Shown piece by piece: positions 2,796 to 60,608 of a stretch of 64,000 bases of DNA. The first letter of the stretch is position 1, and each line of letters opens with the position of its first letter. The position numbers and the translations under genes were made by a program. The notes under the pieces are model-generated. The model saw only the letters and a program-made list of their open reading frames with translations. It did no database searches and was not told where the DNA came from. Origin of the DNA: Bolinopsis microptera (Eukaryota; Ctenophora; Tentaculata; Lobata; Bolinopsidae); assembly GCF_026151205.1 (NCBI RefSeq), contig NC_087072.1:24455799-24519798 (forward strand). The letters are read 5' to 3'.

Positions 2796-5700
2796 ATGGG
2801 CTTTAGAGCGAACGTTTGGTTCGCCCTAATACTTCTATCTCAAGTAAACGCCACGGACACAGGTTAGTCTTACTAAATATTTCAAATAAATTTATAGAGG
2901 TTATTATTTTAAAATATTTCATTTACCAATTACCTCTCGACAATACTGGCAACATTTAACTTCATTTGTCAATTTACTCAATCAATTAATGACTTCTTTC
3001 TTAACTTCCAGTATATATAGTAGTTTATATCTATACTATAATGATTCGATTAATGATCTACAATCTGTTTCCAAAACATTTTGTAGAATGTTTCAACTGA
3101 AATTAAAATAATCCATTTAGGTTGGATAACAGTCAGCAAAAACAAAATCATACCACACGACAGTTCAGCACCGTTAGAGGTCAAGACCTCGGCTGAAATA
3201 GGCAGCAACAAGCAAATCTATCTGGAGTTCCTTGATTCTAGTAATGTAGTGAGAGGAAATCTGAGGGTCAATTTTTATAGCCCAATCAAATACTTCACTA
3301 CGGCAAATTGTGTACATGGTGGGAATGAAATTGTCATTCCTTCAAGCTCTTCAGAGGGATGGGTGTTAACTGTTCAAAAGACGGAAAAGTCGCTCACAAT
3401 TCACGGCAACAATGTTTTGATCACAAATCTCGTGTTCAGTGAACATATGTATGGAAACTGTGAAGCACGGTGGAATCTCGAACCTCTGCTGAAGATAAGA
3501 TTTAGATCATCAGACACGGCTTCTGAAATTTACCGAGTAAAACCTCGAGGTAACAAATAATAAAAAGTATTGATTGTGATCAGCGACAGATTTATAGGAT
3601 GACCAGATATGCTTATATAACTCACAACATTATCGTTATCAGTTAGTGACAGTGAATTCTCCTTTATAAAATCAACACTTTGTTTCAGGTCAGTGCACAG
3701 GCTTAAACCACGGACTTGAGCACCTTGAGATACAACAAACATTCCCGGTTAAAAGTGACACTGTGATCAACGTAAACTGCATTGAAAATAACGAACAACT
3801 GTTTGGAGACGAAACCATAACCTGCTACGACCAAACTTTCTTCCTGTTTGAACGAATTCCTAAGTGTATTGCCCCAGGTATCCATTTTGTTTTTAGTTAA
3901 TTGTTTTAGTTTAAAAAAAGGTTGTATAACTATAACCTACTGGCTACATGATAAACTTTGACAAAAGTTTAGAACTATATGATGTCAAAAAATAGGAAAA
4001 TAGGGTTTCGATCACTTCATTATATATATCACTAGAAACCCGCTAGTCGAAAGCTTTGTTCGAGGAAATTTTAAAAATCAGTTATGTTTTAATTTCTCTT
4101 CATCATACAGCTCTGTTATTCAGTAGACATAATGGAATTTATTTAACAATGGCGACAGCGTTGTTAGTATTCGGATTCCCAAAACGATACTTTTTACCGC
4201 ATCAAAAAATACCAATCACAACCAAAGTTATGAATATAAGTCATAGCGTGAGCGTAAATGTGAGCTAGTTTTGAAGTTATGACGTAGCATACAGCATAAC
4301 AACGCGCGTAGTTAAGATGTTCTTGCTCGCGCACGTGCATTTTTATCGTTGCTACGCAACAGCGCAGTAAACCTTTGCTAAAATAACGCCATTATTCTAA
4401 CGATTATTTAACCTCACTTCCGACGATAATTATAAAAAATCTAAAGCCTAAATCAAAATTCTAAGAATGTTATAGCCTATTCCTATCCTTTTTCTACAAC
4501 CCTGCTAAAAATGGCGAGGTTTCAACTCCATTTGCGAGCTGGGTTTGGCTTCACCAGAGGGTCATTTTGAGGTCGATTTTCGGTGTTTTTTCTTCTATGT
4601 CCCCGTTGCCGGGGAAATTTCGTCAAGTTTAAAATATTGTATAGATATTATCATATTAACATCTATTTGTTACAGCATCTTGCACCGCATTGCCTACAGC
4701 TCGGCTAATGCCCTACGTCATTCGTGAGGGTGTGGAGTTTCCTAAATCGTCTGGCACAGAGATCCAACTTTCTTGCTACGAAGGATTTGAGTTAGAAGGA
4801 GACAAGAAAATGACATGCTACTCCGGCACCTACTACACATACTCAGGAGATAGTGGAGAGCTACCAAAATGCACGCCAACTCCTTCTTCAGGTATGCCAG
4901 GTGGATCAGACGATAGACAGTGTAAGGATTTGTATTTCTTTAAATGCATGATTTTATACTTCATTAGTATCATTTACATCTTGATGATGGATTCCTCTTC
5001 AGGATGGAAAATAGCGGAACATGATTGGTCCATGATCCAAGTTAGTGGCCAGCCTTTCGACGTGATAACAAATTCGATGCCCAACTCATATGACATGCTT
5101 AAATTTGAGTTTCATGGCATAGGTTCGATAACTTTAGAAATGAGAGAAGAGTTCACTGCCATGTATCAAATGAGATACGGCTGCACACCTGACATGAAAA
5201 AGACAGCGCGACTCCCTGATGCTTTGGTGAAAGTTTGGACATTTTCTAAAACAAGCTCTTCGTTGATCATACATTGTAATGGTCAGATTGCTGCCAACAT
5301 CCCTTTTGATGAAGGAGTGACACGTTGTGAAAGAAGATGGTCAAAAAATGTGGAACAAATACGATTCATATACGATGGAGATGCAGCGTCTGATTATTAC
5401 AGAGTCAAGCAGGCATCAGGTACATGCGTAACACTTTAAATAAAAGAGACATTATATTTTGATAGATACAATATAAAGATTAAATATGATAGAAAAAATT
5501 GTCCTGTCCAGTGCAGTGGCCAGATCCCAATCAGTTGGAAGTCATACAATTACAATAAACTATATAGGGGTAGGTAAGAACCTCCAGGTAAAAATAAGTG
5601 TTGGTTAAGTCGGGACACGGAAATAGTGTTTTGACTTTACCCTTTTTAACACTTTATTAGCTAAAACCATAATTTCCAGATTGCACCGGTCTTCACCCAA

Positions 5701-11899: not shown

Positions 11900-12823
11900 T
11901 CATAATAATTCAAGGCTCTTGTGGCTCTTCGCATGAATCCCCATTGAAGCAGGTCTTTTTGTAATAAAGGGACATAAATTACATCTCAATATGTAAGCCT
12001 CAGAATTATTACTATCTGAATGATGACTGAGCAAATGCTTATCTAATAGCATTTTTTTTGAGCTGTTATAAGAACACTTATCACATTTCCACTTCCTTTC
12101 ATTTGTGTGAGTTGACTCATGATCTCGAAGTTTTGTCTTGTCTTTCAACATCTTCAAACAATACCTACACTTCAGTTTATGAGACTTAGTATGATTTCTG
12201 AACTCAGAGCTCTCTCTTGTAGAATATGGACATTTTGAACAATATTTTAACTCATGTATCTTCATATGATTTTGTAGTTTAGCTCGTGTGCGTGTTGCAA
12301 AGTTGCACATCACACATTTGAAAAATAAAGAATCCTCATCATGAATTTTTTTATGCTGGGAGATAGCAGACTTCGAGGCAGCTTTATAGGGACAAACATT
12401 ACACTGAAAAGGTTTTTCTCCAGTATGCTTTCTTTGATGGATGGTCAGTTGTCCACTCTCTGTAGCTGACCAAAGACAGAATTGACACTTATAAGGTCGA
12501 ATACCAGTGTGTCGCTTCAAATGTGTATCTAGAGACTGCTTGTGAGCAGTTCTGAAACTGCAATAACTGCATTTAAATGGCTTTAAGCCAATGTGTTGGC
12601 TATTGATGTGTGATAGAACATGTGATTTACAACGTCCACTGTAATCACACATCCTACACTTGAAAACTTTCTTTGACGACTTTTGATCATAAAAACTTGT
12701 AGGGACTGAATTACAGTGATGCGAACTCAGTGTCACATTTGCTCCACAAGGAGCGATATCCTCATCTTCTGTGACGCAGTTAGTAGATTTCCAGTCATTT
12801 CCACAATGTGTCTCATCTGTCAT
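11900..12823 (-). CDS. C2H2 zinc-finger protein, copy A (nine fingers)
   Basis: An intronless 307-codon frame on the minus strand. The N-terminal ~60 residues are unstructured, then nine consecutive C2H2 fingers follow. The linkers TGIRPYKC and TGEKPFQC are typical of DNA-binding arrays, and several fingers are of the short CSKCPYS or CRYCLKM type seen in REST- or CTCF-like poly-finger proteins. The role is inferred as a nuclear sequence-specific DNA-binding factor. A splice acceptor (TTCAG) 11 bases upstream of the ATG suggests a non-coding 5' exon. It differs from copy B by about seven residues and one single-residue indel. No KRAB, BTB or other accessory domain is visible, and I cannot assign orthology. 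Confidence 0.85.
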   Translation of the reverse strand: MTDETHCGNDWKSTNCVTEDEDIAPCGANVTLSSHHCNSVPTSFYDQKSSKKVFKCRMCDYSGRCKSHVLSHINSQHIGLKPFKCSYCSFRTAHKQSLDTHLKRHTGIRPYKCQFCLWSATESGQLTIHQRKHTGEKPFQCNVCPYKAASKSAISQHKKIHDEDSLFFKCVMCNFATRTRAKLQNHMKIHELKYCSKCPYSTRESSEFRNHTKSHKLKCRYCLKMLKDKTKLRDHESTHTNERKWKCDKCSYNSSKKMLLDKHLLSHHSDSNNSEAYILRCNLCPFITKRPASMGIHAKSHKSLELL

Positions 12824-12861
12824 ATTTTTATCCCTGAATCAATATGCATGGATTAAAATAA

Positions 12862-17489: not shown

Positions 17490-20400
17490 TCAGCCGATAA
17501 GTTTGCGGATATTATCCTTGATGAAGGACTTTCGGTCCGTCAAATCCACACCAGGATATAAACCATATATCTTTTTGAGGGCATCTTTCATGGAGACTTC
17601 TTCCAAGTCTATATTTTCAACAGTCTTCTTAATTGCACCAATCAAATCTTCATCGGTTGGACCAGAGAAGGAATCATCTTTCGAAATGTCCGTTATAGAT
17701 TCACTGAGTTTACGTTTTTTCGTTGGGTTAGTAATAGTATTTGTTTCAAGATCATTGTCTTCTGAAACTGATTCTGACTCACTTAAGGAGTCGTCTCCTT
17801 CTACTTCATCGTCCGTGTCCCGTTTCTTTGGAGTAGCTTTCTTTCTTTTTGGAGTCGTTTTCGGTTTCGATTTTGCAGACGATTTCTTTTTGGCAGGAGT
17901 TGTCTTTCCCTCGTCATCTTTAGTGGTCGACCTTCGTCTTTTGGAGGGTGTCTTACTTTTCTTTTTGCTAGGAGCATGTCTGCCTTTATCTTCTGGTGAC
18001 ATGAGAAAGTCCATGAGTTCTTGCATGGTTGAGTTCTGATTGAGGCCCAGCAGTTTCATTGACAGTTTCCTGTCGACTGACTTCATTTTCCTGCAATAAG
18101 TGAAAACTATTATTGAAGTTTAAAAAATTGGCCGGGCAAATGATTTAGCGAGAGCGCAATTTCTGAGGGCAGGATATCGTTAATTTGACGAAACAATCTT
18201 AAAGGACCAGTTAACTGAAAAAAAAGTTATCCTCATATTTTGACAGATTGTGACAAATAGCAAACTAAGCAACGAGTCGAAATTCCTAAATCTCTAACTG
18301 CTCTCTAACGCGTGTAAATAGCGTTTGTATTATTTTGGCGATGACGTCATAAAGTCCCTTGCGCGCGCAGAGGAGCTCGTTAGACTGTATTTTACAGGTA
18401 GAAAATGGACATAATACAATGTTTTTCCCCGAATAACTCGAAAAGTAAGTAATTTAGGGTACATGTTGCTTCATAAGTTGTATATAAACACGGCCATTCT
18501 GCACAATTTGCACACATTTAAAAAGGGCCTTCATAGCCCAATTTACCAGATACCCATAGTTTTGCATGATTTCTGGAACCGAAAATCAGTTTTTCGCCAA
18601 TAACTGAAAAAGTAAGCACTTTAAGGCATATGTTTGTTCGTAAGTCATATATTAATATGCTAATTGCGGTTCTTTTGCACCCTGTCTAAAGACCCCTTCA
18701 CGATCCTATCAAAAATGGGCTCAGTACCACGCCCAAAATGGTTTTTGGCAAATTTCTCGAAAAGTAAGGATTTTAGGCCATGTGTTGCTCAGTAGCTCCT
18801 ACATAAACATGCATATGCCGCTTCGTTTAAGCCTATTTTGAAGTCTCTACGACCTTCAGAAGCAAGGGGTCGGTTACGTTATTGGGTCAATATGGGCGTG
18901 GCCCTCCTGGGTTTTCTCCACGGTCAAAAAAATGTCTCCAAACGAAAATCGTTTATTCATACCTTCAGGAAGGTCTGTGCAAAGTTTCGTGAGTATTTGA
19001 ACATTTGCAGGTTCATTTCCATAAATGTCCATAAATGACTGGACTACACAACTTTAGAGTTAACTTTAGAGAAACTCATAAGTCATTTATCTCAAATTAA
19101 GCTGTTAGTGTCCATGATCAACCTGTGGCGACAATGTTTTACGTGAAATGTAAAAATCAGGAGTAATATAAAAAGTGTATTTGTAGATTAAAGTGCTAGC
19201 TCATAGTTTTATAGAATTGTATAGATTAACGTTGGTCGTTTAGCCATCTAACAATCGATCGTGCCGTAATATATGGCCAGAGAATAATAGGGTCTTGGAA
19301 ATTCTATAGTTGTTCAGTGGGTCGATTGACTGAACACGTTTGCACTTGGTATTTAAACTTACCAGTAGTTTATTTATGTTATGTACCGATGATAATGCAA
19401 TTAGGATAACAACTAGGTAAGCCGTAAGTCTAATTCAAAACACACCGCACACTCCAATCAGTATTACTATTTGGTAGACCGGGTATTTTGGCGGGAATTC
19501 TGTTCCCACGGCACTGTTCTGATAGAAGCTACTTCTACTAATGGTCCCAGAGGAACGGCCGTAAAGTAGCCAGACTTCTTGTCTCCTGTACTGGCTGACA
19601 CATGCGGATTAAAGTTAGAAATTTCGCTATGATATAAATATAATTGCTCTCGGAATTGAACAAACTCCCACTTAATATCTAGATCCTTTCTAAATTCGTT
19701 AGAGTTTCATGGACTGGGGAAAAATAATCGGTACAGTCTCCCTGCTTGTGTAATTAAGCAATGAAAACAATCCAAAATTATCACATATGACATAAGTTGT
19801 AATAGCAGAAACTTTCTAACCGTACATTCACCCGCCACTGTTCAAAAACCTATACCACTGTTTAAAATCATGACGTGAGCACTGTACATCCAATCAGCTA
19901 TTTCTTTAGTTAGGATGATAGCCAAAACTATAAGGATTTTGGAGAACTAGGGTATTAGTCATAATTCTAAAATTTGAGTGAGTTACACGTGTTTTATTGA
20001 CGATGATAAACATTTGCAATGTATTACGCTATGCAAGCGCGCACTGAGGGACTTTACGACGTCACGAGGCCACAGCTTATTATTGCAATAACACGCGTTA
20101 CACGTACGCTAGAGAATTGGTTCTTTCGGCGATACGATTCTTTACCAGTTTGTCACAGCTGATTTAAATCTTAGCCAAATTGGAGACTACAAATTTTTCA
20201 GTTAACTGGTCCTTTAAACTCTTATTATATTATGAACTCAAAGATAAATAACAAACACTAACTTGATTGAGGTTAGTTTGCTTGAGTACAATTTGGAATC
20301 CTCGTCGAAATTGAACCCGTTGAACCTGCGGACATTTCCTTTGCGTTGTAGGGACACTCCTTGACTATTGTACATGAGCCGGTGCATTGAGATGTAGCTA

Positions 20401-24612: not shown

Positions 24613-25539
24613 TCATAATGATTGAAGGCTCTTGTGGCTCTTTGCATGAATCCCCATTGAAGCAGGTCTTTTTGTAATAAAGGAACATAAATTACATCTC
24701 AATATGTCAGCCTCAGAATTATTACTATCTGAATGATGACTCAGCAAATGCTTATCTAATAGCATTTTCTTTGAGCTGTTATAAGAACACTTATCACATT
24801 TCCACTTTCTTTCATTTGTGTGAGTTGACTCATGATCTCGAAGTTTTGTCTTGTCTTTCAACATCTTCAAACAATACCTACACTTCAGTTTATGAGACTT
24901 AGTATGATTTCTGAACTCAGAGCTCTCTCTTGTAGAATATGGACATTTTGAACAATATTTTAACTCATGTATCTTCATATGATTTTGTAGTTTAGCTCGT
25001 GTGCGTGTTGCAAAGTTGCACATTACACATTTGAAAAATAAAGAATCCTCATCATGAATTTTTTTATGCTGGGAGATAGCTGACTTCGAGGCAGCTTTAT
25101 AGGGACAAACATTACACTGAAAAGGTTTTTCTCCAGTATGCTTTCTTTGATGGATGGTCAGTTGTCCACTCTCTGTAGCTGACCAAAGACAGAATTGACA
25201 CTTATAAGGTCGAATACCAGTGTGTCGCTTCAAATGTGTATCTAGAGACTGCTTGTGAGCAGTTCTGAAACTGCAATAACTGCATTTAAATGGCTTTAAG
25301 CCAATGTGTTGGCTATTGATGTGTGATAGAACATGTGATTTACAACGTCCACTGTAATCACACATCCTACACTTGAACACTTTCTTTGACGACTTATGAT
25401 CATAAAGACTTGATGTAGGGACTGAATTACAGTGATGCGAACTCAATGTCACATTTGCTCCACAAGGAGCGATATCCTCATCTTCTGTGACGCAGTTAGT
25501 AGATTTCCAGTCATTTCCACATTGTGTCTCATCTGTCAT
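24613..25539 (-). CDS. C2H2 zinc-finger protein, copy B (nine fingers)
   Basis: A 308-codon frame paralogous to 11900-12823, with all nine C2H2 fingers and their zinc ligands intact. Differences lie mostly in the N-terminal tail (one inserted residue near SLYDHKSS) and in the last finger and tail (CSF for CPF, SLQSL for SLELL). The same acceptor-like TTCAG precedes the ATG. Retention of both frames suggests recent duplication or continuing constraint. Confidence 0.85.
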   Translation of the reverse strand: MTDETQCGNDWKSTNCVTEDEDIAPCGANVTLSSHHCNSVPTSSLYDHKSSKKVFKCRMCDYSGRCKSHVLSHINSQHIGLKPFKCSYCSFRTAHKQSLDTHLKRHTGIRPYKCQFCLWSATESGQLTIHQRKHTGEKPFQCNVCPYKAASKSAISQHKKIHDEDSLFFKCVMCNFATRTRAKLQNHMKIHELKYCSKCPYSTRESSEFRNHTKSHKLKCRYCLKMLKDKTKLRDHESTHTNERKWKCDKCSYNSSKKMLLDKHLLSHHSDSNNSEADILRCNLCSFITKRPASMGIHAKSHKSLQSL

Positions 25540-26011
25540 ATTTTTATCCCTGAATCAATATAGTTATCAATGTATGGATTAAAGAATGATACACATAATG
25601 GGTGAGATTACGTGCTACGCCCTAGCTATAGTGCCCAATGAACCATACCAAGCAAGTAGAGATCTCAACACTGCACCATACAATTAGATCTACAGTGCTA
25701 TGAGGTCAGCCCTCAGCTTCCCCTATATAATATATAAGGAGATAAGGGGACTCCCTCACATACAAAATGTTTGAATAGTAATGTTACATAACTATTTCAA
25801 CCCACACAAGACATAATAGAATCATAAGAATGGGAGGCAGCTCAATTAAGGTGGTAACAAGATAAACAAAATGCTTGATAACTTTGTCATTTCAAAGCTG
25901 TTTCACATCATTTTTTAGATCAGATGCAGCAATTAATGATCAACAGTAAGTTGAAAAACTGGGGCATCCAGTATTTTTGGAAAGAACAATATAAGTAATT
26001 TAATATTGAAT

Positions 26012-27903: not shown

Positions 27904-30116
27904 TCAGCCGATAAGTTTGCGGATATTATCCTTGATGAAGGACTTTCGGTCCGTCAAATCCACACCAGGATATAAACCATATATCTTTTTGAGGGCATCT
28001 TTCATGGAGACTTCTTCCAAGTCTATATTTTCAACAGTCTTCTTAATTGAACCAATCAAATCTTCATCGGTTGGACCAGAGAAGGAATCATCTTTCGAAA
28101 TGTCCGTTATAGATTCACTGAGTTTACGTTTTTTCGTTGGGTTAGTAATAGTATTTGTTTCAAGATCATTGTCTTCTGAAACTGATTCTGACTCACTTAA
28201 GGAGTCGTCTCCTTCTACCTCATCGTCCGTGTCCCGTTTCTTTGGAGTAGCTTTCTTTCTTTTTGGAGTCGTTTTGGGTTTCGATTTTGCAGCCGATTTC
28301 TTTTTGGCAGGAGTCGTCTTTCCCTCGTCATCTTTTGTGGACGACCTTCGTCTTTTGGAGGGTGTCTTACTTTTCTTTTTGCTAGGAGCATGTCTGCCTT
28401 TATCTTCTGGTGACATAAGAAAGTCCATGAGTTCTTGCATGGTTGAGTTCTGATTGAGGCCCAGCAGTTTCATTGACAGTTTCCTGTCGACTGACTTCAT
28501 TTTTCTGCAATAAGTGAAGATGAAGGTTTAAAAAAAGAAGATATAATTTTCCCGAAAAATTTTGCAAGTTTAAAAAATTGGCCAGGCAAATGATTTAGCG
28601 AGAGGGAAATTTCTGAGGGCAGGATATCGTTAATTTGACGAAACAATCTTAAACTATTATTATACAATGAACTCAAAGATAAATAACAAACACTAACTTG
28701 ATTGAGGTTAGTTTGCTTGAGTACAATTTGGAATTCTCGTCGAAATTGAACCCGTTGAACCTGCGGACATTTCCTTTGCGTTGTAGGGATACTCCTTGAC
28801 TATTGTACATGAGCCGGTGCATTGAGATGTAGCTATCCGAATGTGTCTTACTCATGTACTCCGTAACTATAAACATTTATAATCAAGAAATCTCTTATTT
28901 AAATGAATTATGAGATATTATCCAGCAAGTATAGAGATATATTTTGAACTAGATAACAAGTAGCCGGTAGCCATTAAATGTTCCTAGAAATTCATCGATA
29001 AATCTATAAATAATTGCTATATAAATCGTTTAAATAAATAAGCGTATTACTTCCTTTCTAAACTCAGAAACCCCACTGATTTATTCCTCAAGAAGTTAGA
29101 AAGAAAGCTGCCAAACCTATCTCAATTTCTCCAAGTAGAGTACCACGTCCCACTTCAAAATCCAAGCCCTTTTTCTCTTTCGCAGGAGCTGCACTGGTGA
29201 AAGTTTGTACAGCAGTCCTCCGTCGTTTTCCTTCTACTATCACTGGTTTCTGGCCTGGAGTTAAAACAATACAGTTAGAAAAGTACACTGCATTCATAGG
29301 TACGGCCGAGATCATCATCGACCAACAGCTATCTTCAAGCGGACGCAAATTGATATTTTTCAGTCTATGACAGCTAACGATGTTTGACATAATTCAGCAT
29401 AAAGGGGAGAGAAGTGTTGGATTCTACAAAAATGATGTACTTGAAGGAGTGCGGGGGAAGCTTCATGTAGAGCTGCTCTGCTTTGAACCAAACCATGGAT
29501 CAAGTAAGGGATTTCACGTCTTATATCAAAATTTGAATAACTCTTGAAAGAATAAATAGCTTCGTTTTTATCAATATTTTCCCATCTTACCTGCATTAAA
29601 TTTCCAGGGTGTACTTTATAACGAGGATATTAAGGAGACACCATGTGTAACACCATGTGTAACACCAGGTGTAACACCAGGTGTAACACCATGTGTAACA
29701 CCAGGTGTAACACCAGGTGTAACACCACGTGTAACACCACGTGTAACACCACGTGTAACACCATGTGTAACACCAGGTGTAACACCATGAGTGCTTCAGA
29801 ATATGCACGAGGGGACTAGTGGCGCAGGTTTGTCATATCACTTAATACGTAGTTTGCATAATTTGTTAATTTTCCTAAAATCAAATTAAATAGTTTCACT
29901 GATAAAAGGGAGCACACATCTCTTATTCACGTAAAACTCGCACACTCAAATTGAACTATACTCCCAACAAAGTAACATTTTAATGCTACAAATAGTTCAA
30001 CAAGAAAAACCTGATGATTTGGAGAAGGAGTCATCAATTGCTAATTCTTCTTTCTCAGATTCTTCAGTTTCTCCTTCCACCCGGGAATCCTCCAGCTTTG
30101 AGTCGTTACTCTCAAC
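27904..30116 (-). CDS. DEK: DEK chromatin protein, copy B
   Basis: Exons 30116-30011, 29254 to about 29089, 28866-28698 and 28504-27904, with the same phases as copy A. In the final exon it differs from copy A by three residues (for example IGSIKK for IGAIKK). It keeps the SAP-like region, the basic PKKxKxx linker and the DEK C-terminal domain, so it is not visibly damaged there. The intron before the last exon is short (about 190 bases) because it lacks the TTAA element. As in copy A, exon 2 runs into a stop after FFLTS without a clear GT donor, and no initiator exon is found. Upstream lies repeat R. Confidence 0.85.
29636..29790. repeat. 12-bp minisatellite in DEK copy B intron
   Basis: About 13 copies of the same 12-bp unit as 21026-21231. 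Here it is a mix of three variants at one position (CCATGTG, CCAGGTG, CCACGTG), whereas the copy A array is uniform. Confidence 0.9.
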
Positions 30117-37253: not shown

Positions 37254-38870
37254 GCCGATAGATATCTTATCTCTGCAAGTTCTTTAATCTTTACCGGAGC
37301 AGTATGAGAATTAAAATTAACCGACGAGATCATTTTCCCACCAAACTCCTTGCTTTCCAGCCTGTTAGTGTTATCATCCATGGACCAGAATTGTTCAGCC
37401 TCAAGAGCATCATATATGTGTGACAGAGCACTACATTGTGCTTTATTGGCCCAACCAGGCCCAAGCTACACTCTTGCTTCAATACCATTAGTATGAACTA
37501 ACCCTAAATGGTATAGTGCCTGGCGGCTGGCATGCCTTACAATACCATTAGACTGTTAGAAAGGAAGTTAAACTTTGGCCACCGCCACTTTCCCAGTACA
37601 GGTACATTAAGTCATGTGGACGAAATAATAACTGTAGCCAACTCGTATCCAACATTGGACCAATGTTTGTTTACATGTTGGTGACAGAATGGGAGAAGTC
37701 CAATATTTTATTCTGTGTGGTTGCTTTAGTACCAGTGCTTTAGTGTATATCAAAGGACCTGAGGGTCACCAAAACACAGATGTTGAGAGCAAAATGCACC
37801 TCCTGCACAAGTATATTATATTCGATGGAATCCAGCCTTGTCAATTTCCCGTGCTCCGTCGTACGGAGTTATTCGTCTCCATATAGTCCACAATATAGTT
37901 CCATCTTTAAATCTGCTTATTTAAAGAGGGCTACCACCCCCTCAATGAGACGTAGACACTACTAATGTTATCATGGTTAATTCGTGGTGAACTTCTTTAA
38001 AACTGCGCCTCCCAGTTCCATACTACTCATGAGCTGCCTCACTGCAATAATAGCTGTTCTGGTGAGGAGACGTGGCTATTCTTTAACTGTTGCTATTACT
38101 ATTCCTATTGTGCTTACCTCGTTACCAACGACGGTGATCTGCTGCACCAAATCTGGGGTCTGTGAGTGGCTGAGCTGCAAATTAGACCTGCATGTGCAGG
38201 GTTGCCGGCATTTTTGAGAGTCATTTTTAAGGGTCTTTTCACGTCTTTTAAGGCCCCTTTTGACCCATTTTTAAGGTCCAAAACAGTAAAAATCAAGATT
38301 TTTAAAGGTCCACAGTGCGAAAGTTTGGACAAACGTAGTGCAATAAAGTGCAAATTTAAGGTTTCTTAAGGTTTTCCGCTACAGAAATTGCAATCATATC
38401 TAAAGGGGGAAGGTATAATTTCAGAAAACCCCAATTAGATCTACACCGAGCTAGGTATAATTTCAGAAAAACCCAATTAGATCTACAACAAGCTAGGTAT
38501 AATTTAAGAAAAACCCAATTAGATATACACCGAGCTAGGTATAATTTCAGAAAACCCAATTAGATCTACAACAAGCTAAGTATAATTTCAGAAAAACCCA
38601 ATTAGATCTAAACCGAGCTAGGTATAATTTCAGAATATCCAATCAGATCTACATCAAGCTAGGTATAATTTAGGTATGGAAACTTAAAAAACCTTAAAAA
38701 CCCGAAAATTTGCCCGTTTTTCGCGTCTTTTTTAAGATTTTTTGCCCAAAATTGCCGTTTTAAAGGTTTTTAAGGTTTTTAAAGGCAACCCTGTGCATGT
38801 GACACAGAAGTTGCATACACCTCTCAGAGGTGTATAAGAGTTCAAGGTCACCACGTCCAAAATCGACGTT
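37254..38870. repeat. Repeat R, copy 3, right piece, with hAT-type insertion
   Basis: R resumes at GCCGATAGATATC after the foldback and runs to AGTTCAAGGTCACCACG. It lacks the segment around CTGATGCCTGTTCATG and instead has CCTGAGGGTCACC, a variant shared with copy 5. The element 38197-38793 is inserted in it. Confidence 0.85.
38197..38793. mobile_element. Non-autonomous hAT-type element (CAGGGTTGCC ends), copy 1
   Basis: 597 bases with ends CAGGGTTGCC / GGCAACCCTG. A perfect 8-bp duplication TGCATGTG (38189-38196 and 38794-38801) flanks it. CAGGG termini and 8-bp duplications are typical of hAT. The interior has about six copies of a 41-bp unit with AGGTATAATTTCAGAAAA. The uninterrupted site is present in R copies 1, 4 and 6. 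Confidence 0.9.
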
Positions 38871-40155: not shown

Positions 40156-40412
40156 TATTAACAAGAATTGCGCCCGTTGTTTCGTTTTGGCGGACGCTAG
40201 ATTTCCATTTCACATTTACTGTAAATTTAAGTATAAGCTCCAATCAGCTCACTTCAATCTTCATGATAATAATATTGATAAATTATGCATCAAATACGGG
40301 AAACACTTGAAATTCAGTTCAATTGCCGTAGAACTTAACTTGTATTTGTTCTGTAGTTATTTATACACTGGGTGGTATACATTTTATGTACATTGCTTCT
40401 TGAAGAACTATT

Positions 40413-41612
40413 ATGGCAAGTGGCAGTAATCAGAAATCAGAAAGCGATGAAGCGAAAAAGCTAGTACTTGGAAACCTGCTCAATAAAGCTGATGCTCCCA
40501 GCAAGAAAGTGCTAAGCTCGTATAGTTTCGCTGTAACCTACAAGGTCAATTTGGACAATATGCTGAAAAATAATGCCACATTATTAGAAGCTTGTGCGAC
40601 ATATCTTGGTTTCACCGTCCGAGAAAAAGAAACAGAAAAGAAATTGTACAAGAACCAGCAAGTCCTGTGCGATAAGATGATACTCAAGATTGAAACCCTG
40701 TTTGACATAGACTGTGCTATGTGCAAGGGAACTTACTGCAACGAACTGACTGATGAACCGCTTTTGAAATGTCGGCTCTGTTTGCAGGGTTCTCACAATT
40801 GTGAAGCTATGATTGAGAAAGCAAAAGCCCTCAACCAACTGATTCAGGATGGCACGCTACCTCCTGGAACATCATGGCAATGTTTTGGGTGCGACAAGAA
40901 GAATGACACCTCGCTCCAACAGGTGCTCACTGCCAAACCCACAAGTTCTACCGAAGCTGCTTTGCACCCTATAAAAGAAGAAGGTGAAGCGGAAGTAGAG
41001 AAGAATGAAGACGACGCTAACGACAGAGAGAGCCCCAGGCGGGGTAGGGAAGAAATTAGAAATGATATTAATGAAAACGAAACCACATCAACACAGATCT
41101 GCAAAGAATACACAATGAGAAGATGCCCCCATGGTCTCACTGGGAAGAGACCCATTGAAGGGAAGAATTGCCCGTTCCAGCACCCTATTAGGTGCCGTTA
41201 TTACACGCAGTATGGTAATGATAGACACCAAGGGTGTAAGAAAATGAAAGATTGCACTTTCTACCACCCAAAACTGTGCAGAGATTCAGTATCCCAGCGA
41301 TGTTGCCTGAACAAAGAATGCGGCTATGTTCATCTAAAGGGAACTGCCAGAAAAACTGTTGGTACTGCGACGGCAATAAACGACAGACAAAATTCCCGGC
41401 AGCAACAGCAACAACAAGCTCAACCAAGGCAAAGATTAGAGTCATATAGCAACCAAAATAACAGAGGACAATGGCCCCCTCTTAACTCATATGACCCTGA
41501 AAAATGGGAAGCTTGTACTCCGTATACACCCCACACCCGCCCACTGTCGAAAATGGAAGACCTGCCAGACGTCATAAAGACAGTACCTCTGAGAAAGACA
41601 GTGCTTTTTTAG
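40413..41612 (+). CDS. LINE ORF1 protein with PHD-like and CCCH zinc motifs
   Basis: 399 codons from ATG. Residues ~100-165 form a PHD-like Cys/His cluster (CAMCKGTYC, CRLCLQGSHNC, WQCFGC). Residues ~229-310 carry three CCCH-type fingers (CKEYTMRRCPHG, CRYYTQYGN, CRDSVSQRCC). A Gln-rich stretch follows. ORF1 proteins of such elements bind the RNA and act as chaperones; that role is inferred. The frame probably continues after a shift. The +2 frame 41504-41857 has a coiled-coil-like segment (FLEKLLENLKDGIISQMDSK) that looks like genuine ORF1, so 41560-41610 may hold an indel or a programmed shift. Confidence 0.8.
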   Translation: MASGSNQKSESDEAKKLVLGNLLNKADAPSKKVLSSYSFAVTYKVNLDNMLKNNATLLEACATYLGFTVREKETEKKLYKNQQVLCDKMILKIETLFDIDCAMCKGTYCNELTDEPLLKCRLCLQGSHNCEAMIEKAKALNQLIQDGTLPPGTSWQCFGCDKKNDTSLQQVLTAKPTSSTEAALHPIKEEGEAEVEKNEDDANDRESPRRGREEIRNDINENETTSTQICKEYTMRRCPHGLTGKRPIEGKNCPFQHPIRCRYYTQYGNDRHQGCKKMKDCTFYHPKLCRDSVSQRCCLNKECGYVHLKGTARKTVGTATAINDRQNSRQQQQQQAQPRQRLESYSNQNNRGQWPPLNSYDPEKWEACTPYTPHTRPLSKMEDLPDVIKTVPLRKTVLF

Positions 41613-41712
41613 AGAAACTATTGGAAAATCTCAAAGATGGCATAATATCCCAAATGGACTCCAAAATGACGGAACTTCGGAGCCAACTTCCATCAATCAT
41701 CCAGGAGACTCA

Positions 41713-44700
41713 ATGGACCCTACAGCGCCCAAGGTCCCACCAAGGTCCTATACAAATGCCATTATCGATGCCGCCAACTGCCCCTATGGTGATCCCCAAC
41801 CAAACGCATCACATGCCAATGAACCTCATCCCCAACTATCCCGCATCCTGCTTTTGAATGCAAGGTCCATTTCCCCAGCCGCCACTAGCACGGTCAAATG
41901 GAAGATACCATTCTTGAAAGACCACATCATTGAAGAGGAAGGAGGCCTACCTGTACCCTTCTTCGCAATAACAGAATCTTGGCTCAAGCCTTACATAAGT
42001 GATGCCCAAGTCGCAATCCAAGGCTACAACTGTATCAGAGCAGACCGTCCTACCCGAAAAGGGGGTGGCTGTGCTCTATATGTTGCGGAACCGCTTATCT
42101 TCTCTGACGCCATCAGTCACAGTGACAAACACTGCAATATGCTGTACGTTTTTATAGACAGTATGAATACATTTGTCTCTGTAATCTATCGTCCACCTGA
42201 TGCCCCCGCAAACTCATTTAGAGAAGTCTTGAACACGGTTCAAGAAAAACTTAACCACCTCACATTAGAAAATAGGACACCAGATCTATATATCATGGGA
42301 GACTTCAATCTTCCAAATATAGACTGGGAGACTCCTGACGCAACTCAAGAACTGTCCATTGTTAACCAACAAGCATGTTCGGATCTTTTGGAATTCATGA
42401 ATAAGAACTTCCTGTCGCAAATGATCCTCAAGCCTACTAGAAAGGACAACATCATCGACCTGGTGTTTACTAACAAACATCAGGATATAGTGGAAACAAA
42501 CATCAGGGAAACCCAAGTGTCTGACCATCGACTCGTGGAACTCCTGTTAGGGTACAACCCCCTCAGTCCTAAAAAAGATACCGCATCATCACATGATAAA
42601 TACTCATTTAGAGCTGCTGATTTCCACAGGGCAGACTTTGATACAATGAATGAGCAATTTTCTAGTGTAAACTGGAAATCACTGAACGAACTATGTGACA
42701 AAGATAAGGACGGGAGTGACTTTTTAGAGCTTATCAGACTAACGGTCCTCCAGATTACCCTCCTTCACTCTCCCCTCAAAAGCACAGCAGATTCTAGTTC
42801 GACCTCAACCGGCAAAAGCCGCCAGCAGCGAGACAAGTATGTTCTTAAAAGAAGAAGAAGAAAACTTAATGTACGCATTAAAGCCCTCACCGAAAGAAAC
42901 CCGTCTTCTCAAAACATTGCTAAGTTGAGTAAAGAAGTGAGCCTACTCACATTTGAAATTAGCGAACTGATTACTAAGCAATTGAATGAGAATGAAGCTA
43001 AAGCTGTAAGCACTATCAAAACGAATCCACGCTTCTTTTACAGCTATGCAAAACGATTTGCTAAGACGAAGTCGTCTGTCTCCCCCATCAGAGATAATAG
43101 TGGGACTCTGAAAACGGACGCAATTGACAAAGCAGAGCTTCTCCAGGCGCAATACGTCAAAGTATTCAGCGACCCCAACGCCGCCAACGTCGACGCATGC
43201 CTTGCTGGACTAAACCCCGTCCCAGATAGAAATCTGGACAGCATAACCTTCACTGTGGACGACATAGTAGAAGCCATTAAAGAACTGGATCCCTACTCTT
43301 CAACCCCTGATGGAGATATCCCAGCTAAAGTTCTCACAAAGTGTAAGGATAGCCTTGCAGTCCCTATATTTTTACTTTGGCACGATTCGTTTAGATCAGG
43401 AGTAATACCACCAAGTATGAAGACCCAGTATATAACACCAATATACAAAAAGGGAGACCGCACATCAGCAGCCAACTACCGCCCAGTCTCCATCACGTCT
43501 CATCTAATCAAGATTTTCGAGAGAGTGCTAAGAAAACACATCGTCCAGCACATGGAATCAAACAGCTTTTTGTCTCCGCACCAACATGGTTTCCGTAAAA
43601 AAAGGAGTTGCCTCACTCAACTTTTGGACCATGTAGACAATATTCTGAAGACCCTCAATAGTGGCGATGAAGTGGATGTTATATACCTTGATTACGCCAA
43701 GGCGTTTGACAAAGTGGATCACAACATTCTTCTAGCTAAAGCCAAACGCTACGGTATCACGGGCAAAACTCTACAGTGGCTTGCTGAGTTCTTAAAGAAT
43801 CGCCTGCAGACAGTGGTCGTCGAAGGAGAAAAGTCGTCCTTCCAGATTGTGATAAGTGGTGTCCCACAGGGAACTGTGTTAGGTCCAATCTTGTTTATTC
43901 TGTATATAGATGACCAACTGGACACGTTATTAACTGCTCTTGGAAAGGTCTTTGCTGATGACACGAAGCTTATAAGCAAAATTACTGATTTAGTAGCAAG
44001 GTGTTTGCTTCAAGAAGATCTGTTTAATGTCATCAAATGGGCCCTGCAAAATAACATGCAGCTAAACGAAACCAAATTTGAAGTTATCAACTACAAGCTG
44101 AATAAATCCCTGCTATTGAGAGAACTTCCCTTCTCCAACGAAGACTACAGCTACAGCTCAACAAACGGGGAAATTATCGAACCAACGCAAACAGTCAGAG
44201 ACCTTGGAGTACTCCTCTCAAATGACTGCTCATGGACGCCCCATATCCATCAGATGCTGAAAACTGCTAAGAAAATGGCATCGTGGGTTTTCAGTGTCTT
44301 CAGTGACAGATCACCTTTCCTGATGCTCACCCTTTTCAAAACAATGGTGAGGAGCAGGCTAGAATACTGTTGCCCGGTCTGGAACCCCAGCAAAATCACC
44401 GATATAGAAGCAATCGAAAATGTTCAGAGGAACTACACTCGCCGTATCATAGGTTGTCAGCAATTGGACTATTGGGACCGTCTTAAGAAGCTGAACCTGC
44501 TCTCCCTGCAGAGGCGGAGAGAGCGATACATCCTGATCCATACATGGAAGATGGCAAACGACCTTGCTCCAAATGACATCAACATGGTATTCAAGGAAAA
44601 CGCTCGACATGGCATAAAAGCCATAGTCCCACCACTGAACAACAAATCGCAACGATCAGTGGCCACTCATTACGAGAATTCCTTTGGAGTGAATGCAGCG

Positions 44701-44880
44701 AGACTATGGAACCTCCTCCCACGACAAGTGAACATTTTAACTGCTCTAGGACCCTTCAAGGTATTACTTGCTCGATTTTTGGAGACGTTTCCCGATACCC
44801 CGCCAACCAAAGGATACACCGCCATCACCAACAACTCACTCCTGGAATGGAATCTACAGAAAGATCTGAACCAGGAATGA
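41713..44880 (+). CDS. LINE ORF2: apurinic-type endonuclease and reverse transcriptase
   Basis: 1,055 codons without interruption. The N-terminal endonuclease has NARSIS (~53), ITESWLKP (~85), GDFNLPNIDW (~195) and SDHRLVE (~269). The RT domain has PIYKKGDRTSAANYRPVS (~576), YLDYAKAFDKVDHN (~658), GVPQGTVLGPILF (~717) and the catalytic FADDTKL (~746). The C-terminal region has RSRLEYCCPVWNP and RLWNLLP. This is the layout of CR1/Jockey-group ORF2, which nicks target DNA and copies the element RNA at the nick. The first ATG overlaps the shifted ORF1 tail frame, so translation may depend on reinitiation or frameshifting. Confidence 0.93.
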   Translation: MDPTAPKVPPRSYTNAIIDAANCPYGDPQPNASHANEPHPQLSRILLLNARSISPAATSTVKWKIPFLKDHIIEEEGGLPVPFFAITESWLKPYISDAQVAIQGYNCIRADRPTRKGGGCALYVAEPLIFSDAISHSDKHCNMLYVFIDSMNTFVSVIYRPPDAPANSFREVLNTVQEKLNHLTLENRTPDLYIMGDFNLPNIDWETPDATQELSIVNQQACSDLLEFMNKNFLSQMILKPTRKDNIIDLVFTNKHQDIVETNIRETQVSDHRLVELLLGYNPLSPKKDTASSHDKYSFRAADFHRADFDTMNEQFSSVNWKSLNELCDKDKDGSDFLELIRLTVLQITLLHSPLKSTADSSSTSTGKSRQQRDKYVLKRRRRKLNVRIKALTERNPSSQNIAKLSKEVSLLTFEISELITKQLNENEAKAVSTIKTNPRFFYSYAKRFAKTKSSVSPIRDNSGTLKTDAIDKAELLQAQYVKVFSDPNAANVDACLAGLNPVPDRNLDSITFTVDDIVEAIKELDPYSSTPDGDIPAKVLTKCKDSLAVPIFLLWHDSFRSGVIPPSMKTQYITPIYKKGDRTSAANYRPVSITSHLIKIFERVLRKHIVQHMESNSFLSPHQHGFRKKRSCLTQLLDHVDNILKTLNSGDEVDVIYLDYAKAFDKVDHNILLAKAKRYGITGKTLQWLAEFLKNRLQTVVVEGEKSSFQIVISGVPQGTVLGPILFILYIDDQLDTLLTALGKVFADDTKLISKITDLVARCLLQEDLFNVIKWALQNNMQLNETKFEVINYKLNKSLLLRELPFSNEDYSYSSTNGEIIEPTQTVRDLGVLLSNDCSWTPHIHQMLKTAKKMASWVFSVFSDRSPFLMLTLFKTMVRSRLEYCCPVWNPSKITDIEAIENVQRNYTRRIIGCQQLDYWDRLKKLNLLSLQRRRERYILIHTWKMANDLAPNDINMVFKENARHGIKAIVPPLNNKSQRSVATHYENSFGVNAARLWNLLPRQVNILTALGPFKVLLARFLETFPDTPPTKGYTAITNNSLLEWNLQKDLNQE

Positions 44881-45324: not shown

Positions 45325-46985
45325 TTTCATCTACATATTATGGAAGTTATGCGCTGAAGTGTTAACAAAGTGCTTAGCCGAGATGATAGATATCTTATCT
45401 CTGCGAGTTCTTTACCGGAGCAGTAAGAGAATTAAAATTAACCGATGAGATCATTTTCCCACCAAACTCCTTGCTTTCCAGCCTGTTAGTGTTATCATCC
45501 ATGAATCAGAATTGTTCAGCCTCAAGAGCATCATATATGTGCGACAGAGCACTGTTGTGCTTTATTGGCCCAACCAGGTCCAAGCCACACTCTTGCTTCA
45601 ATACCATTAGTATGAACTAACCCTAAATGGTATAGTGCCTGGCGGCTGGCATGCCTTACAATACCATTAGACTGTTAGAAAGGAAGTTAAACTTTGGCCA
45701 CCGCCACTTTCCCAGTACAGGTACATTAAGTCATGTGGACGAAATAATAACTGTAGCCAACTCGTATCCAACATTGGACCAATGTTTGTTTACATGTTGG
45801 TGACAGAATGGGAGAAGTCCAATATTTTATTCTGTGTGGTTGCTTTAGTACCAGTGCTTTAGTGTATATCAAAGGACCTGAGGGTCACCAAAACACAGAT
45901 GTTGAGAGCAAAATGCACCTCCTGCACAAGTATATTATATTCGATGGAATCCAGCCTTGTCAATTTCCCGTGCTCCGTCGTACGGAGTTATTCGACTCCA
46001 TATAGTCCACAATATAGTTCCATCTTTAAATCTGCTTATTTAAAGAGGGCTACCACCCCCTCAATGAGACGTAGACACTACTAATGTTATCATGGTTAAT
46101 TCGTGGTGAACTTCTTTAAAACTGCGCCTCCCAGTTCCATACTACTCATGAGCTGCCTCACTGCAATAATAGCTGTTCTGGTGAGGAGACGTGGCTATTC
46201 TTTAACTGTTGCTATTACTATTCCTATTGTGCTTACCTCGTTACCAACGACGGTGATCTGCTGCACCAAATCTGGGGTCTGTGAGTGGCTGAGCTGCAAA
46301 TTAGACCTGCATGTGCAGGGTTGCCGGCATTTTTGAGAGTCATTTTTAAGGGTCTTTTCACGTCTTTTAAGGCCCCTTTTGACCCATTTTTAAGGTCCAA
46401 AACAGTTAAAATCAAGATTTTTAAAGGTCCACAGTGCGAAAGTTTGGACAAACGTAGTGCAATAAAGTGCAAATTTAAGGTTTCTTAAGGTTTTCCGCTA
46501 CAGAAATTGCAATCATATCTAAAGGGGGAAGGTATAATTTCAGAAAACCCCAATTAGATCTACACCGAGCTAGGTATAATTTCAGAAAAACCCAATTAGA
46601 TCTACAACAAGCTAGGTATAATTTAAGAAAAACCCAATTAGATATACACCGAGCTAGGTATAATTTCAGAAAACCCAATTAGATCTACAACAAGCTAAGT
46701 ATAATTTCAGAAAAACCCAATTAGATCTAAACCGAGCTAGGTATAATTTCAGAATATCCAATCAGATCTACACCGAGCTAGGTATAATTTCAGAATATCC
46801 AATCAGATCTACATCAAGCTAGGTATAATTTAGGTATGGAAACTTAAAAAACCTTAAAAACCCGAAAATTTGCCCGTTTTTCGTGTCTTTTTTAAGATTT
46901 TTTGCCCAAAATTGCCGTTTTAAAGGTTTTTAAGGTTTTTAAAGGCAACCCTGTGCATGTGACACAGAAGTTGCATACACCTCTC
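45325..46985. repeat. Repeat R, copy 5, with hAT-type insertion
   Basis: Almost identical to copy 3, including the CCTGAGGGTCACC variant and the hAT-type element at the same position. The R3-R4 pair was therefore duplicated as a unit to give R5-R6. Confidence 0.9.
46316..46953. mobile_element. Non-autonomous hAT-type element (CAGGGTTGCC ends), copy 2
   Basis: Same element and target site as 38197-38793, carried along by duplication of R. It is 41 bases longer because the internal tandem array has one more unit. Confidence 0.9.
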
Positions 46986-48315: not shown

Positions 48316-48463
48316 AACTCAATTATATTAGGTCTAATAACCTTAAACCTTAAATAACCGCTTATTCCGTGTCACTCACTAACTGGGTTCGTTAAACGTA
48401 CATAAATTGCGCAAGTTAAATGACTCCTATATTAGCAACTAAAAGATGCATTGTTTGTAGAAA

Positions 48464-51438
48464 ATGATGATACGGACAACCCTTCTCCTAGTACTGATCT
48501 CGTCTTTATCAGCAGGTTCGTTCTTATTATCTTACTTAACCAGACACCGGGCCCTTATCAGCAGGTTCGTTCTTATTATCTTACTTAACCAGATACCGGG
48601 CCTTTATCAGCAGGTTCGTTCTTATTATCTTACTTAACCAGACACCGGGCCCTTATCAGCAGGTTCGTTCTTATTATCTTACTTAACCAGATACCGGGCC
48701 CTTATCAGCAGGTTCGTTCTTATTATCTTACTTAACCAGACACCGGGCCTTTATCAGCAGGTTCGTTCTTATTATCTTACTTAACCAGATACCGGGCCTT
48801 TATCAGCAGGTTCGTTCTTATTATCTTACTTAACCAGACACCGGGCCTTTATCAGCAGGTTCGTTCTTATTATCTTACTTAACCAGATACCGGGCCTTTA
48901 TCAGCAGGTTCGTTCTTATTATCTTACTTAACCAGATACCGGGCCTTTATCAGCAGGTTCGTTCTTATTATCTTACTTAACCAGACACCGGGCCTTTATC
49001 AGCAGGTTCGTTCTTATTATCTTACTTAACCAGACACCGGGCCTTTATCAGCAGGTTCGTTCTTATTATCTTACTTAACCAGACACCGGGCCTTTATCAG
49101 CAGGTTCGTTCTTATTATCTTACTTAACCAGATACCGGGCCTTTATCAGCAGGTTCGTTCTTATTATCTTACTTAACCAGACACCGGGCCTTTATCAGCA
49201 GGTTCGTTCTTATTATCTTACTTAACCAGATACCGGGCCTTCATCAGCAGGTTCGTTCTTATTATCTTACTTAACCAGATACCGGGCCTTTATCAGCAGG
49301 TTCGTTCTTATTATCTTACTTAACCAGATACCGGGCCCTTATCAGCAGGTTCGTTCTTATTATCTTACTTAACCAGATAACGGGCCTTTATCAGCAGGTT
49401 CGTTCTTATTATCTTACTTAACCAGATACCGGGCCCTTATCAGCAGGTTCGTTCTTATTATCTTACTTAACCAGATACCGGGCCTTTATCAGCAGGTTCG
49501 TTCTTATTATCTTACTTAACCAGATACCGGGCCTTTATCAGCAGGTTCGTTCTTATTATCTTACTTAACCAGATACCGGGCCTTTATCAGCAGGTTCGTT
49601 CTTATTATCTTACTTAACCAGATACCGGGCCTTTATCAGCAGGTTCGTTCTTATTATCTTACTTAACCAGATACCGGGCCCTTATCAGCAGGTTCGTTCT
49701 TATTATCTTACTTAACCAGATACCGGGCCTTTATCAGCAGGTTCGTTCTTATTATCTTACTTAACCAGATACCGGGCCTTTATCAGCAGGTTCGTTCTTA
49801 TTATCTTACTTAACCAGATACCGGGCCTTTATCAGCAGGTTCGTTCTTATTATCTTACTTAACCAGATACCGGGCCTTTATCAGCAGGTTCGTTCTTATT
49901 ATCTTACTTAACCAGATACCGGGCCTTTATCAGCAGGTTCGTTCTTATTATCTTACTTAACCAGATACCGGGCCCTTATCAGCAGGTTCGTTTTTATTAC
50001 CTTACTTAACCAGATACCGGGCCTTTATCAGCAGGTTCGTTCTTATTATCTTACTTAACCAGATACCGGGCCTTTATCAGCAGGTTCGTTCTTATTATCT
50101 TACTTAACCAGATACCTTTATCAGATCCCCCAGTTTATAGGTTACCCAGATTCACCGGGGTAAATACATTTTCTTCTACATCTCCGGTTAATTGGAGGTT
50201 TACTGTATCAAGTAATGGACTAAAGCGAAAATTATGCAATTTTGCTCAGTTTGGAAGCCATAGGAATAATGGAAGTTTTGAAGATGATTTCAAAAATTTA
50301 ATCTCACGATTTAAATGCTCACCAAAATGTATTATTTTAAAGTAACTGAAAATTTAATAATACCATTTCAGTTGAATACAAGGTTACAACAGTAACAGCA
50401 GATGTGGAAGATGCTGATACAGATTCCGGATTTTACTACACTATTATCGGGACCAAGGGAACAACATCTGAGTACCAATCAGACAATCCTGGGAATGACA
50501 GACAAAGAGGGAAAACTGATACTTACACCATAACAGATAGTGCGGAAATTGGAGAGTTCAGATGTGTTTCAATAAGGATACACGATGATGATGGGGATGG
50601 ATGGTTCATCACAGAGGTATGGCTCACAATATTTAATTTCTGATAAATGTTTACAGCTAAATGTTCAGATGGCTTGAACTGAATCTTTGGTTTTTGAGTT
50701 ATTTTTGGCTATAAAACGATGTATAAATGTCTATACATATCCGGGCAACAGCCTTTTGTTTTCATAGAGAACATAATATAAATGCAGTATAATTACGAAC
50801 CAACTGTTTCTAGATTGTCGTTGAGATGAGTGGACAAGTCATACCAAAGATTACAGTCGGAGTGGGTTGGATTAATGATGATCCGAATATATTGAGTGAA
50901 GTAGCATTTTGCGCCACTGATTTTGGTAAGATCACAATTTTATTATAGAATCTCTATTATAATTCGAAATTTTCTATTTGTCTGTTTGTCCGGCCACGTG
51001 CAAATTAGGCAGAAAGCAAACAGTTGCATAGTACGCAGGTAAAAACGCACAGGTTCACGCACAATGATTGTTGGAACGGAATTTTGATCGGTTTTGTGGT
51101 AATTACGTTGTGTTTAAAGTGTTTCACATATAACATACTTCCTGGATTGTGTCATGTAGTGTAAGAATGACACAATGAATTAGAAGATTATTTGATAATT
51201 GGACGATAATTAATTTCAGAAAATAAGGTTAGAAACAGATGCCCGAGCAGCCATCCTTACTCGTTTCATCAAAACAACCGATGCTGTTCCAACAACAAAG
51301 AGAAAGTTTTCAGTGCTACTGGGCTGCATTCAGAGTACAACACTTACTGCGATGAGAGAATTCTAGGAGATACAAGTCTTTGCTGTGATGGAGACAGTAT
51401 GGAATGTCCAAATAAACCTTGCTTCGACTATGCTCAAA
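48464..51438 (+). CDS. Secreted protein with PLAT-like domain and cysteine-rich segment
   Basis: Exon 48464-48515 encodes a signal peptide (MMIRTTLLLVLISSLSA) and ends in phase 1. The next secure exons are 50372-50616, 50814-50925 and 51220-51438, all with GT-AG ends and compatible phases. Exons 2-3 encode a beta-rich domain resembling PLAT/LH2 (SDNPGNDRQRGKTDTYTI, RIHDDDGDGWFITE). Such domains often bind calcium, lipid or protein partners. Exon 4 is cysteine-rich (CPSSHPYSFHQNNRCCSNN, CCDGDSMECPNKPCFDY). The 3' end is unresolved. A possible last exon at 51970 (SWSKRVKQGHQ) runs into the mariner-type element at 51999. Intron 1 consists mostly of the 49-bp array. Confidence 0.7.
48505..50118 (+). 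repeat. 49-bp tandem array containing duplicated splice sites
   Basis: About 33 head-to-tail 49-base units, nearly identical. The first unit overlaps the 3' end of the signal-peptide exon. Every unit repeats its TTTATCAGCAG end and GTTCGT donor, followed by TTACTTAACCAG, a plausible branch site and acceptor. Between acceptor and donor lie 21 bases, seven codons in the phase of the gene. Confidence 0.95.
50119..50371. repeat. Rest of intron 1 with a possible pogo-like terminus
   Basis: Contains CCGGTTAATTGGAGGTTTACTGTA (in pieces), resembling the ends of pogo/Tigger MITEs. A related end, GCGGTAAATTGGGG followed by TTATACTGTA, occurs at 51626-51652 in intron 4. Too short to define an element. 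Confidence 0.35.
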
Positions 51439-51998
51439 GTAAGATTAATAATAATGTTATAATATTTATGATAAAACAGACCATATCAAGGCAGATGTCC
51501 TAAAGCCCCAACCGCGTACGAGCAATTTCCTTTCCCGACATGGGGCTTAACATACATAACAAACAAAACCCTGACTTACCGCAATCCCTGATTTACCGCA
51601 GCAGTTTCCTTCCCCCAATCTCTGCGGTAAATTGGGGTTATACTGTACATTGTACAACCTCAACTTAGATATCATCAACCAAGGAACAATGAGCTGTTGG
51701 ATAAAGTTTTGCTACATTGCGATCATGTTAGCACAATGAAACTAATGAGTATTGTACCTATTGAGAAGTTTAGAAAATGGCATCTTCACGGGTATGGGTT
51801 TTCTGTTATCCAGGAGTATATACGGCGGTGCAGACGGCAGAACACTGCGTTAGCCCTATATAATACAGAGAACATCTGAAAAACATTCGCAGCCAGAGCT
51901 CTCATGCATGAAGTTGTGAGGCAAATATTTTTCCAGACTTAGAATATTTGTAATTTTTCTTAGGTTGGTCGAAGAGAGTCAAACAAGGTCATCAAATA

Positions 51999-60508: not shown

Positions 60509-60608
60509 NNNNNNNNNNNNNNNNNNNNNNNNNNNNNNNNNNNNNNNNNNNNNNNNNNNNNNNNNNNNNNNNNNNNNNNNNNNNNNNNNNNNNNNNNNNN
60601 NNNNNNNN
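60509..60608. other. Assembly gap (100 N)
   Basis: Exactly 100 N bases, a conventional placeholder for a gap of unknown size. It is followed directly by a CT-rich microsatellite, which probably caused the break. KAT8 exons may be missing here. Confidence 0.99.

Follow-up and report, generated by a model that had tools for sequence, protein, structure and literature searches.

How one donor is chosen when the end of the exon that carries it has been copied many times over into the adjoining intron, and whether such copies matter to the gene, are the questions raised by the locus described herein. In the present study, a stretch of 64,000 bases of ctenophore DNA (the window) was analysed, in which the first exon-intron boundary of a gene lies within a tandem array. 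This array is a real boundary-spanning minisatellite, and it is most likely a passenger in intron 1. Its 33 donors do not differ from one another, and the normal protein results from the first alone, when this is joined directly to exon 2, which makes the locus a natural experiment on the selection of one donor among 33.

The host gene and the array across its first boundary

The host gene lies on the plus strand, and its four exons join to an intact protein of 230 aa with a cysteine-rich C-terminal end and a PLAT/LH2 domain at residues 20-106 (Pfam E 2.5e-11). The coding part of exon 1 (48464-48515, +) encodes a stretch, MMIRTTLLLVLISSLSA, that is signal-peptide-like as called by eye and by a crude hydrophobicity value, and ends in phase 1, one base into the following codon. 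Exon 2 (50372-50616, +) encodes most of the PLAT/LH2 domain, exon 3 lies at 50814-50925 (+), and exon 4 (51220-51503, +) carries the cysteine-rich C-terminus and the stop. A genome search with exon 2 gave 38 matches, one being exon 2 itself, and 14 of these, the focal exon among them, were retrieved for comparison. A homologous exon 1 was observed in 11 paralogues, which resemble the focal gene in their short and hydrophobic first exon, in the phase-1 join and in the acceptor, and do not have this array; for two further loci (L017 and L018), no exon 1 was found within 1.5 kb upstream. The donors of the paralogues' first exons are GTCAGT, GTGAGT, GTTAGT or GTAAGT, and the focal one is GTTCGT. 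Nine of their 11 first introns measure 121-280 nt and the remaining two 1838 and 3022 nt, the exon 1 belonging to the 1838-nt intron (L008) being uncertain owing to a cysteine-rich, exon-4-like stretch inside that intron. The focal intron 1 (48516-50371, +) is 1856 nt long, or 288 nt after 32 units are subtracted.

The array consists of 33 tandem units with an exact spacing of 49 bp (48505-50116, +), and it stands astride the end of exon 1, the first unit starting 11 bases inside that exon. Tandem Repeats Finder (TRF) placed it at 48504-50116 with 32.9 copies and a 98% match; the donor GTTCGTT occurs 33 times from 48516 to 50084, all 32 spacings being 49 bp; and a 39-bp core has 33 matches in the window at up to 3 mismatches, compared with a mean of 0.00 in 100 shuffles. 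Each unit contains, in order, the last 11 bases of exon 1, the donor GTTCGT, a T-rich stretch with a putative branch-like TTACTTAAC, a CAG and then ATACCGGGCC. The hexamer GTTCGT is identical in 33/33 units (48516, next 48565, then every 49 bases to 50084), and its first copy (48516-48521, +) stands where the paralogues have the donor of exon 1. In unit 1, a 28-base intron-like stretch containing TTACTTAAC leads from this donor to the CAG (48516-48543, +), and the first cassette of 21 bases, reading DTGPLSA, follows at 48544-48564 (+). In the last unit, GGGCC is missing, and one more TTTATCAG follows at 50117-50124 (+), just outside the array; this is the second copy of an 8-bp direct repeat, the other copy of which opens the first unit.

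The units carry 33 acceptor-like CAGs and 32 complete cassettes, all of 21 nt, in phase and stop-free, of which 30 read DTGPLSA, one DTGPSSA and one DNGPLSA. These results bear on an earlier interpretation made from the letters alone (the sequence-only reading). Its amplification of the exon 1 boundary into some 33 units is borne out by the donor count, the spacings, TRF and the core matches, and the limits of exon 1 (48464-48515) and exon 2 (50372-50616) in the gene model are supported by the paralogues. Its in-phase DTGPLSA cassettes hold for the phase of every one, with the corrections that 32 rather than 33 are complete and that 30 have this peptide, and the amino-acid-changing differences that it placed near 49246 and 49377 are in fact at 49242 and 49380.

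With the truncated last unit set aside, six unit positions vary: four of the 21 cassette bases and two of the 28 intron-like ones, the latter both in a single unit, at 49975. Counting positions of the unit from 0, eight of the first 14 units have a C at index 40 and the other 19 have none, and index 0 is C in 7/33 units. By these variants, the 3' part of the array looks more recently homogenised. The same ordered variants speak against an assembly error that has inflated the unit number, or created the array itself, and the sole run of N in the window (60509-60608) lies away from the array, so that we regard such an artefact as very improbable.

A genome query of 257 bases from the start of the array matched at one locus only, with no second allele met, in a search limited to top-ranked candidates and blind to very frequent words, and a mobile-element origin of the array was rejected on this result. 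An Rfam scan of the window at gathering thresholds returned no match, and a COX1 search of the genome was likewise negative. Tandem arrays are common in the window (6929 of 64,000 bases). Among the splice sites of the PLAT family, 1 of 24 donors (that of the focal exon 1) and 0 of 25 acceptors lie inside an array, the donor of one exon 3 (L006) having been left out of the 25 family donors. Several paralogue loci have other arrays in or near their introns with the tested splice sites untouched (L020, 5339-5493; L008, about 370-950; L018, about 1790-2150).

The nearest copy of exon 2 by identity (contig C9, 88% over 32 aa) was rejected as a truncated fragment, with no credible exon 1 match in 8.5 kb. 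This fragment of a PLAT gene (C9:10592464-10592559) comprises the end of intron 1 and some 30 codons from the start of exon 2, and it ends at a stretch whose reverse complement, judged by eye, stands upstream, as if the fragment lay between inverted repeats.

Strength of the copied sites and the in-phase cassette

The strength of the copied sites was scored with matrices from the same genome. In matrices of 31 donors and 36 acceptors, a small set that leans towards consensus, the array donor (6.29) scored above 14 of 31 real donors and the array acceptor (4.98) above 14 of 36 real acceptors. The set draws on 17 inferred myosin introns of at least 20 nt, selected by a script biased towards the consensus, and three with a score of 0 or less were omitted from the matrices. 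Only 4.2% of the 3638 GTs and 9.2% of the 3658 AGs in the window score as well, the array's own counted. When the true exon 2 acceptor was left out of training, it scored 7.77 and the array acceptor 4.72. With a matrix from the PLAT family only, which is small, the array donor ranked above 2 of 17 donors and the array acceptor below all 22 acceptors, and 12% of the GTs and 29% of the AGs in the window score as well as the array sites. None of the 105 other array strands compared, which came from 53 arrays in 173,937 bases and counted the reverse strand of the focal array, equalled the array in the quality of donor and acceptor together; in this comparison the arrays had not begun from a real donor, eight loci (L001-L005 and L028-L030) were omitted and some arrays were counted twice through the overlap of L013, L016 and L017. 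The copied sites are not degenerate, and with the larger matrices their scores fall within those of real sites.

The products of splicing were computed for each donor. Joined straight to exon 2, 1 of the 33 donors, the first, leads to the normal C-terminus, and none of the 32 later donors reaches it, those products that were inspected stopping after 34 or 57 aa. A pure chain of cassettes preserves the reading frame. The intron between neighbouring units would be 28 nt, and it would lengthen to 77, 126, 175 nt and beyond as one, two, three or further units are skipped. The shortest introns in a small sample were 121 nt among the 11 paralogue first introns and 124 nt among the 17 inferred myosin introns, consistent with the view of the sequence-only reading that splicing between adjacent units is unlikely. 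An RNA structure that draws the sites together was rejected, the fold being not unusual (z 0.74 for six units and -0.60 for one).

The sequence-only reading also held that nearly all differences between units in the cassette are silent. Counted by unit, this stands, with 15 silent differences and 2 amino-acid-changing ones; however, the by-unit excess is uninformative since the units are copies of one another, and counted by event it does not stand, for the four variable cassette positions consist of two silent, recurrent changes and two amino-acid-changing singletons. Silent transitions are possible at 8 of 21 cassette positions, so that two or more silent events among four are expected with a probability of 0.49, and both recurrent changes being silent with one of 0.15. 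Nor was variability lower in the cassette (4/21) than in the intron-like part (2/28), with few sites and low power (Fisher p 0.38). The silent pattern is no evidence of coding constraint, with little power to detect it, and constraint was therefore rejected as an argument.

How often such a cassette arises by chance was estimated in two ways. Among 5000 shuffles of the unit with the donor fixed, 16.6% held an acceptor at least as good, and 5.0% gave a cassette that was in phase and free of stops. Among 21,386 virtual units laid across 34 real boundaries, the acceptor appeared in 14.9% and the cassette, stop-free in some frame, in 4.8%; when the exact 11 + 38 bases were used, an acceptor was found at 4 of 34 boundaries and the phase at 0 of 34. 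The cassette with its acceptor is mildly unusual and may be luck, because a unit born across a real donor yields an equally good in-phase one in about 5% of cases by chance, in a test devised after the cassette had been seen.

A probable mirage minisatellite and its rivals

Tandem repeats across exon-intron boundaries have been described in amphioxus as "mirages", in Adh3, globins and other genes (PMC3087553), a described kind that the sequence-only reading missed. The units reported are 10-72 bp long in Adh3 and 150-160 bp in globins (PMC3087553, PMC3902484). RT-PCR of the globins and the data for Adh3 are described as suggesting regular splicing, although many repeats hold AG/GT signals (PMC3087553), and undisturbed splicing is stated for Adh and troponin C and expected for PGBD5 (PMC3902484). 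As those reports describe them, the mirages of Adh3, BflGb6, BflGb9, troponin C and PGBD5 have the same architecture as the ctenophore array, in which we observed near-identical tandem repeats, a unit that spans a real boundary and splice signals in 33/33 units. The differences are of number, host and perhaps content. The ctenophore array has 33 copies, whereas 6 and 3 are given for two haplotypes of BflGb6; its unit combines a donor, an acceptor and an in-phase cassette, a combination that amphioxus units may or may not share; and the host is a ctenophore, another animal group than the lancelets. By listings and the openings of abstracts, a literature search found no mirage described outside lancelets, and a search for ctenophores and minisatellites returned by title nothing on boundary-spanning arrays. 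First-intron minisatellites in earthworm metallothionein (PMC12783039) and sea-bream myostatin (PMC3045353) are presented, in the text available from those reports, with no boundary crossing described. With its 33 nearly perfect copies, the present array adds a comb jelly to the lancelets as hosts of this kind of boundary-spanning minisatellite.

Two further systems are related. In the AGGT model of intron gain, illustrated by potato RdRp, ATP2A1 and 24-bp repeats in fission yeast, tandem copying supplies a ready GT and AG (PMC4974935), and the trait shared with the present locus is, from that account, a tandem-copied segment with splice signals. In contrast, the ctenophore copy holds a pre-existing boundary, and the introns between neighbours, known here from genomic sequence, would be 28 nt. 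In human variable internal tandem repeats, the repeat number is reported to change at the boundary, with cryptic splice sites and, in some cases, novel introns (PMC2812944); that report draws on transcripts in recent human paralogues, whereas the present comparison draws on genomic sequence. Repeats at boundaries or in exons have been described as giving new introns in human, potato and fission yeast (PMC2812944, PMC4974935), and the ctenophore array bears on the question of whether new introns, or small exons that keep the frame, can arise from arrays of this type.

Herein, we propose that the array is a mirage minisatellite born across the boundary of exon 1 and intron 1, which is spliced out with intron 1 and whose copied sites are passengers, and we give this reading a probability of about 70%. 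The ancestor would have been single-copy, with TTTATCAG present twice, in exon 1 and 44 bp on in the intron. The stretch between the two copies would then have been doubled by slippage or by end joining with a 5-bp filler, GGGCC, giving the 49-bp unit, and unequal exchange could subsequently have enlarged and homogenised the array to 33 units; the TTTATCAG at 50117-50124 may mark the likely birth point. The first donor (48516) is predicted to be joined to 50372, so that the array would leave with intron 1, and its copied donors and acceptors, like the 21-base cassettes, would be used rarely, if at all. Both this outcome and the route of birth are what we infer. Since the stretch after the donor aligned to three paralogue first introns no better than shuffles did (the real score was attained by 143, 124 and 103 of 300 shuffles, the introns being too diverged), the birth model takes its evidence from the TTTATCAG repeat and the missing GGGCC. 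In favour of the mirage reading, the left edge of the array falls inside the first exon of a gene that is intact over its four exons, and the 288 nt that remain of the focal intron without 32 units compare with 121-280 nt in 9 of 11 paralogues. Against it, the copied sites are not degenerate, with 0 of 105 other array strands equalling them at both sites, and mirages have been reported from cephalochordates whereas the host here is a ctenophore.

The functional alternatives start from the same copied sites. As a decoy or copy-number brake, 32 identical donors downstream would compete with the real one, and the use of any later donor would retain array sequence and truncate translation, so that output would drop as the array grows. 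One donor in 33 yields the normal protein, and with the larger matrices the scores of the array sites lie among those of real ones. Among duplicated donors, the one nearest the acceptor tends to win, a tendency that counts in favour of such competition. The gene has nevertheless remained intact alongside the array, and the amphioxus mirages, with their duplicated splice sites, are reportedly free of aberrant mRNAs in the published accounts (PMC3087553, PMC3902484). Decoy action of the copied sites is possible, and as the explanation of the array we consider it unlikely, at perhaps a fifth of the weight given to the mirage reading. Some transcripts might instead take at least one 21-base cassette as a microexon between non-adjacent units, adding repeats of DTGPLSA after the signal peptide; because each cassette ends in LSA like the signal peptide itself, cleavage could remove or keep the cassettes. 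The parts for this are present, with an acceptor, an in-phase, stop-free exon of 21 nt and a donor in 32/32 instances, coding constraint not being detected (at low power), and the skipping of units gives introns of 77 nt and more. On the other side, a chance of about 5% for such a cassette (5.0% in shuffles, 4.8% in virtual units) and the absence of any preference for silent changes by event leave in-frame microexons as an unsupported option of low probability. Exons of 21 nt are usually skipped, which counts against them as well.

A combination of both functions can be envisaged, in which the array acts as a repeat-length dial, splicing of non-adjacent units producing a ladder of 0 to many DTGPLSA heptads and later donors producing dead transcripts. 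If this were true, unit number would set both output and N-terminal length and could shift fast between individuals; we rate it as improbable, marginally more so than the microexons. Finally, the 33 acceptor-like sites might be trans-splice targets that take a spliced leader directly, giving transcripts without the signal peptide. A cluster of spliced-leader genes on contig C13 would supply the leader; however, no ATG is found within the repeat unit and nothing else points to leader addition, and we hold this to be as improbable as an assembly artefact.

Spliced leaders and neighbouring features of the window

The cluster itself (C13:12811467-12902749) consists of spliced-leader RNA-like genes whose leader exons end in AATTTGAG, followed by GT and a common downstream stretch. 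The leaders of Hormiphora and Mnemiopsis are described as having a mostly conserved AATTTGAG in common (PMC8527503). A leader pattern derived from Hormiphora in that report led to one locus, and a pattern built from that locus was found at 12 places, compared with 8 in the reversed control; 8 of the 12 lie on one strand within C13:12,811,467-12,902,749. In the four copies that were read, the likeness extends beyond the leader and GT follows AATTTGAG. In the host gene, the 5' end of exon 1 may lie at a spliced-leader acceptor, TTTGTAG/AAAATG (48461-48463, +), a possibility suggested by the presence of spliced-leader genes in the genome; this putative acceptor at 48461 scores 3.4, inside the leave-one-out range of 1.72-10.65 for the 36 training acceptors.

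Other duplicated and repeated features were observed in the window. At 3087-8385, several ORFs share a repeated domain, and of the two scanned, one had no Pfam match and the other a weak Sushi match below the cut-off. An ORF for a C2H2 zinc-finger protein occurs twice in nearly identical form, 12.7 kb apart (11900-12838 and 24613-25554), as does an ORF with a DEK C-terminal domain, 10.4 kb apart (17490-18119 and 27904-28527); the two pairs look as if a segment had been duplicated, the Pfam assignments having been made on the first copies. Long open frames at 40404-44880 resemble a non-LTR retrotransposon, the second having endonuclease and reverse transcriptase domains, and these frames are flanked by two arrays of one 42/83-bp unit containing AGGTATAATTTCAG, at 38411-38671 and 46530-46831.
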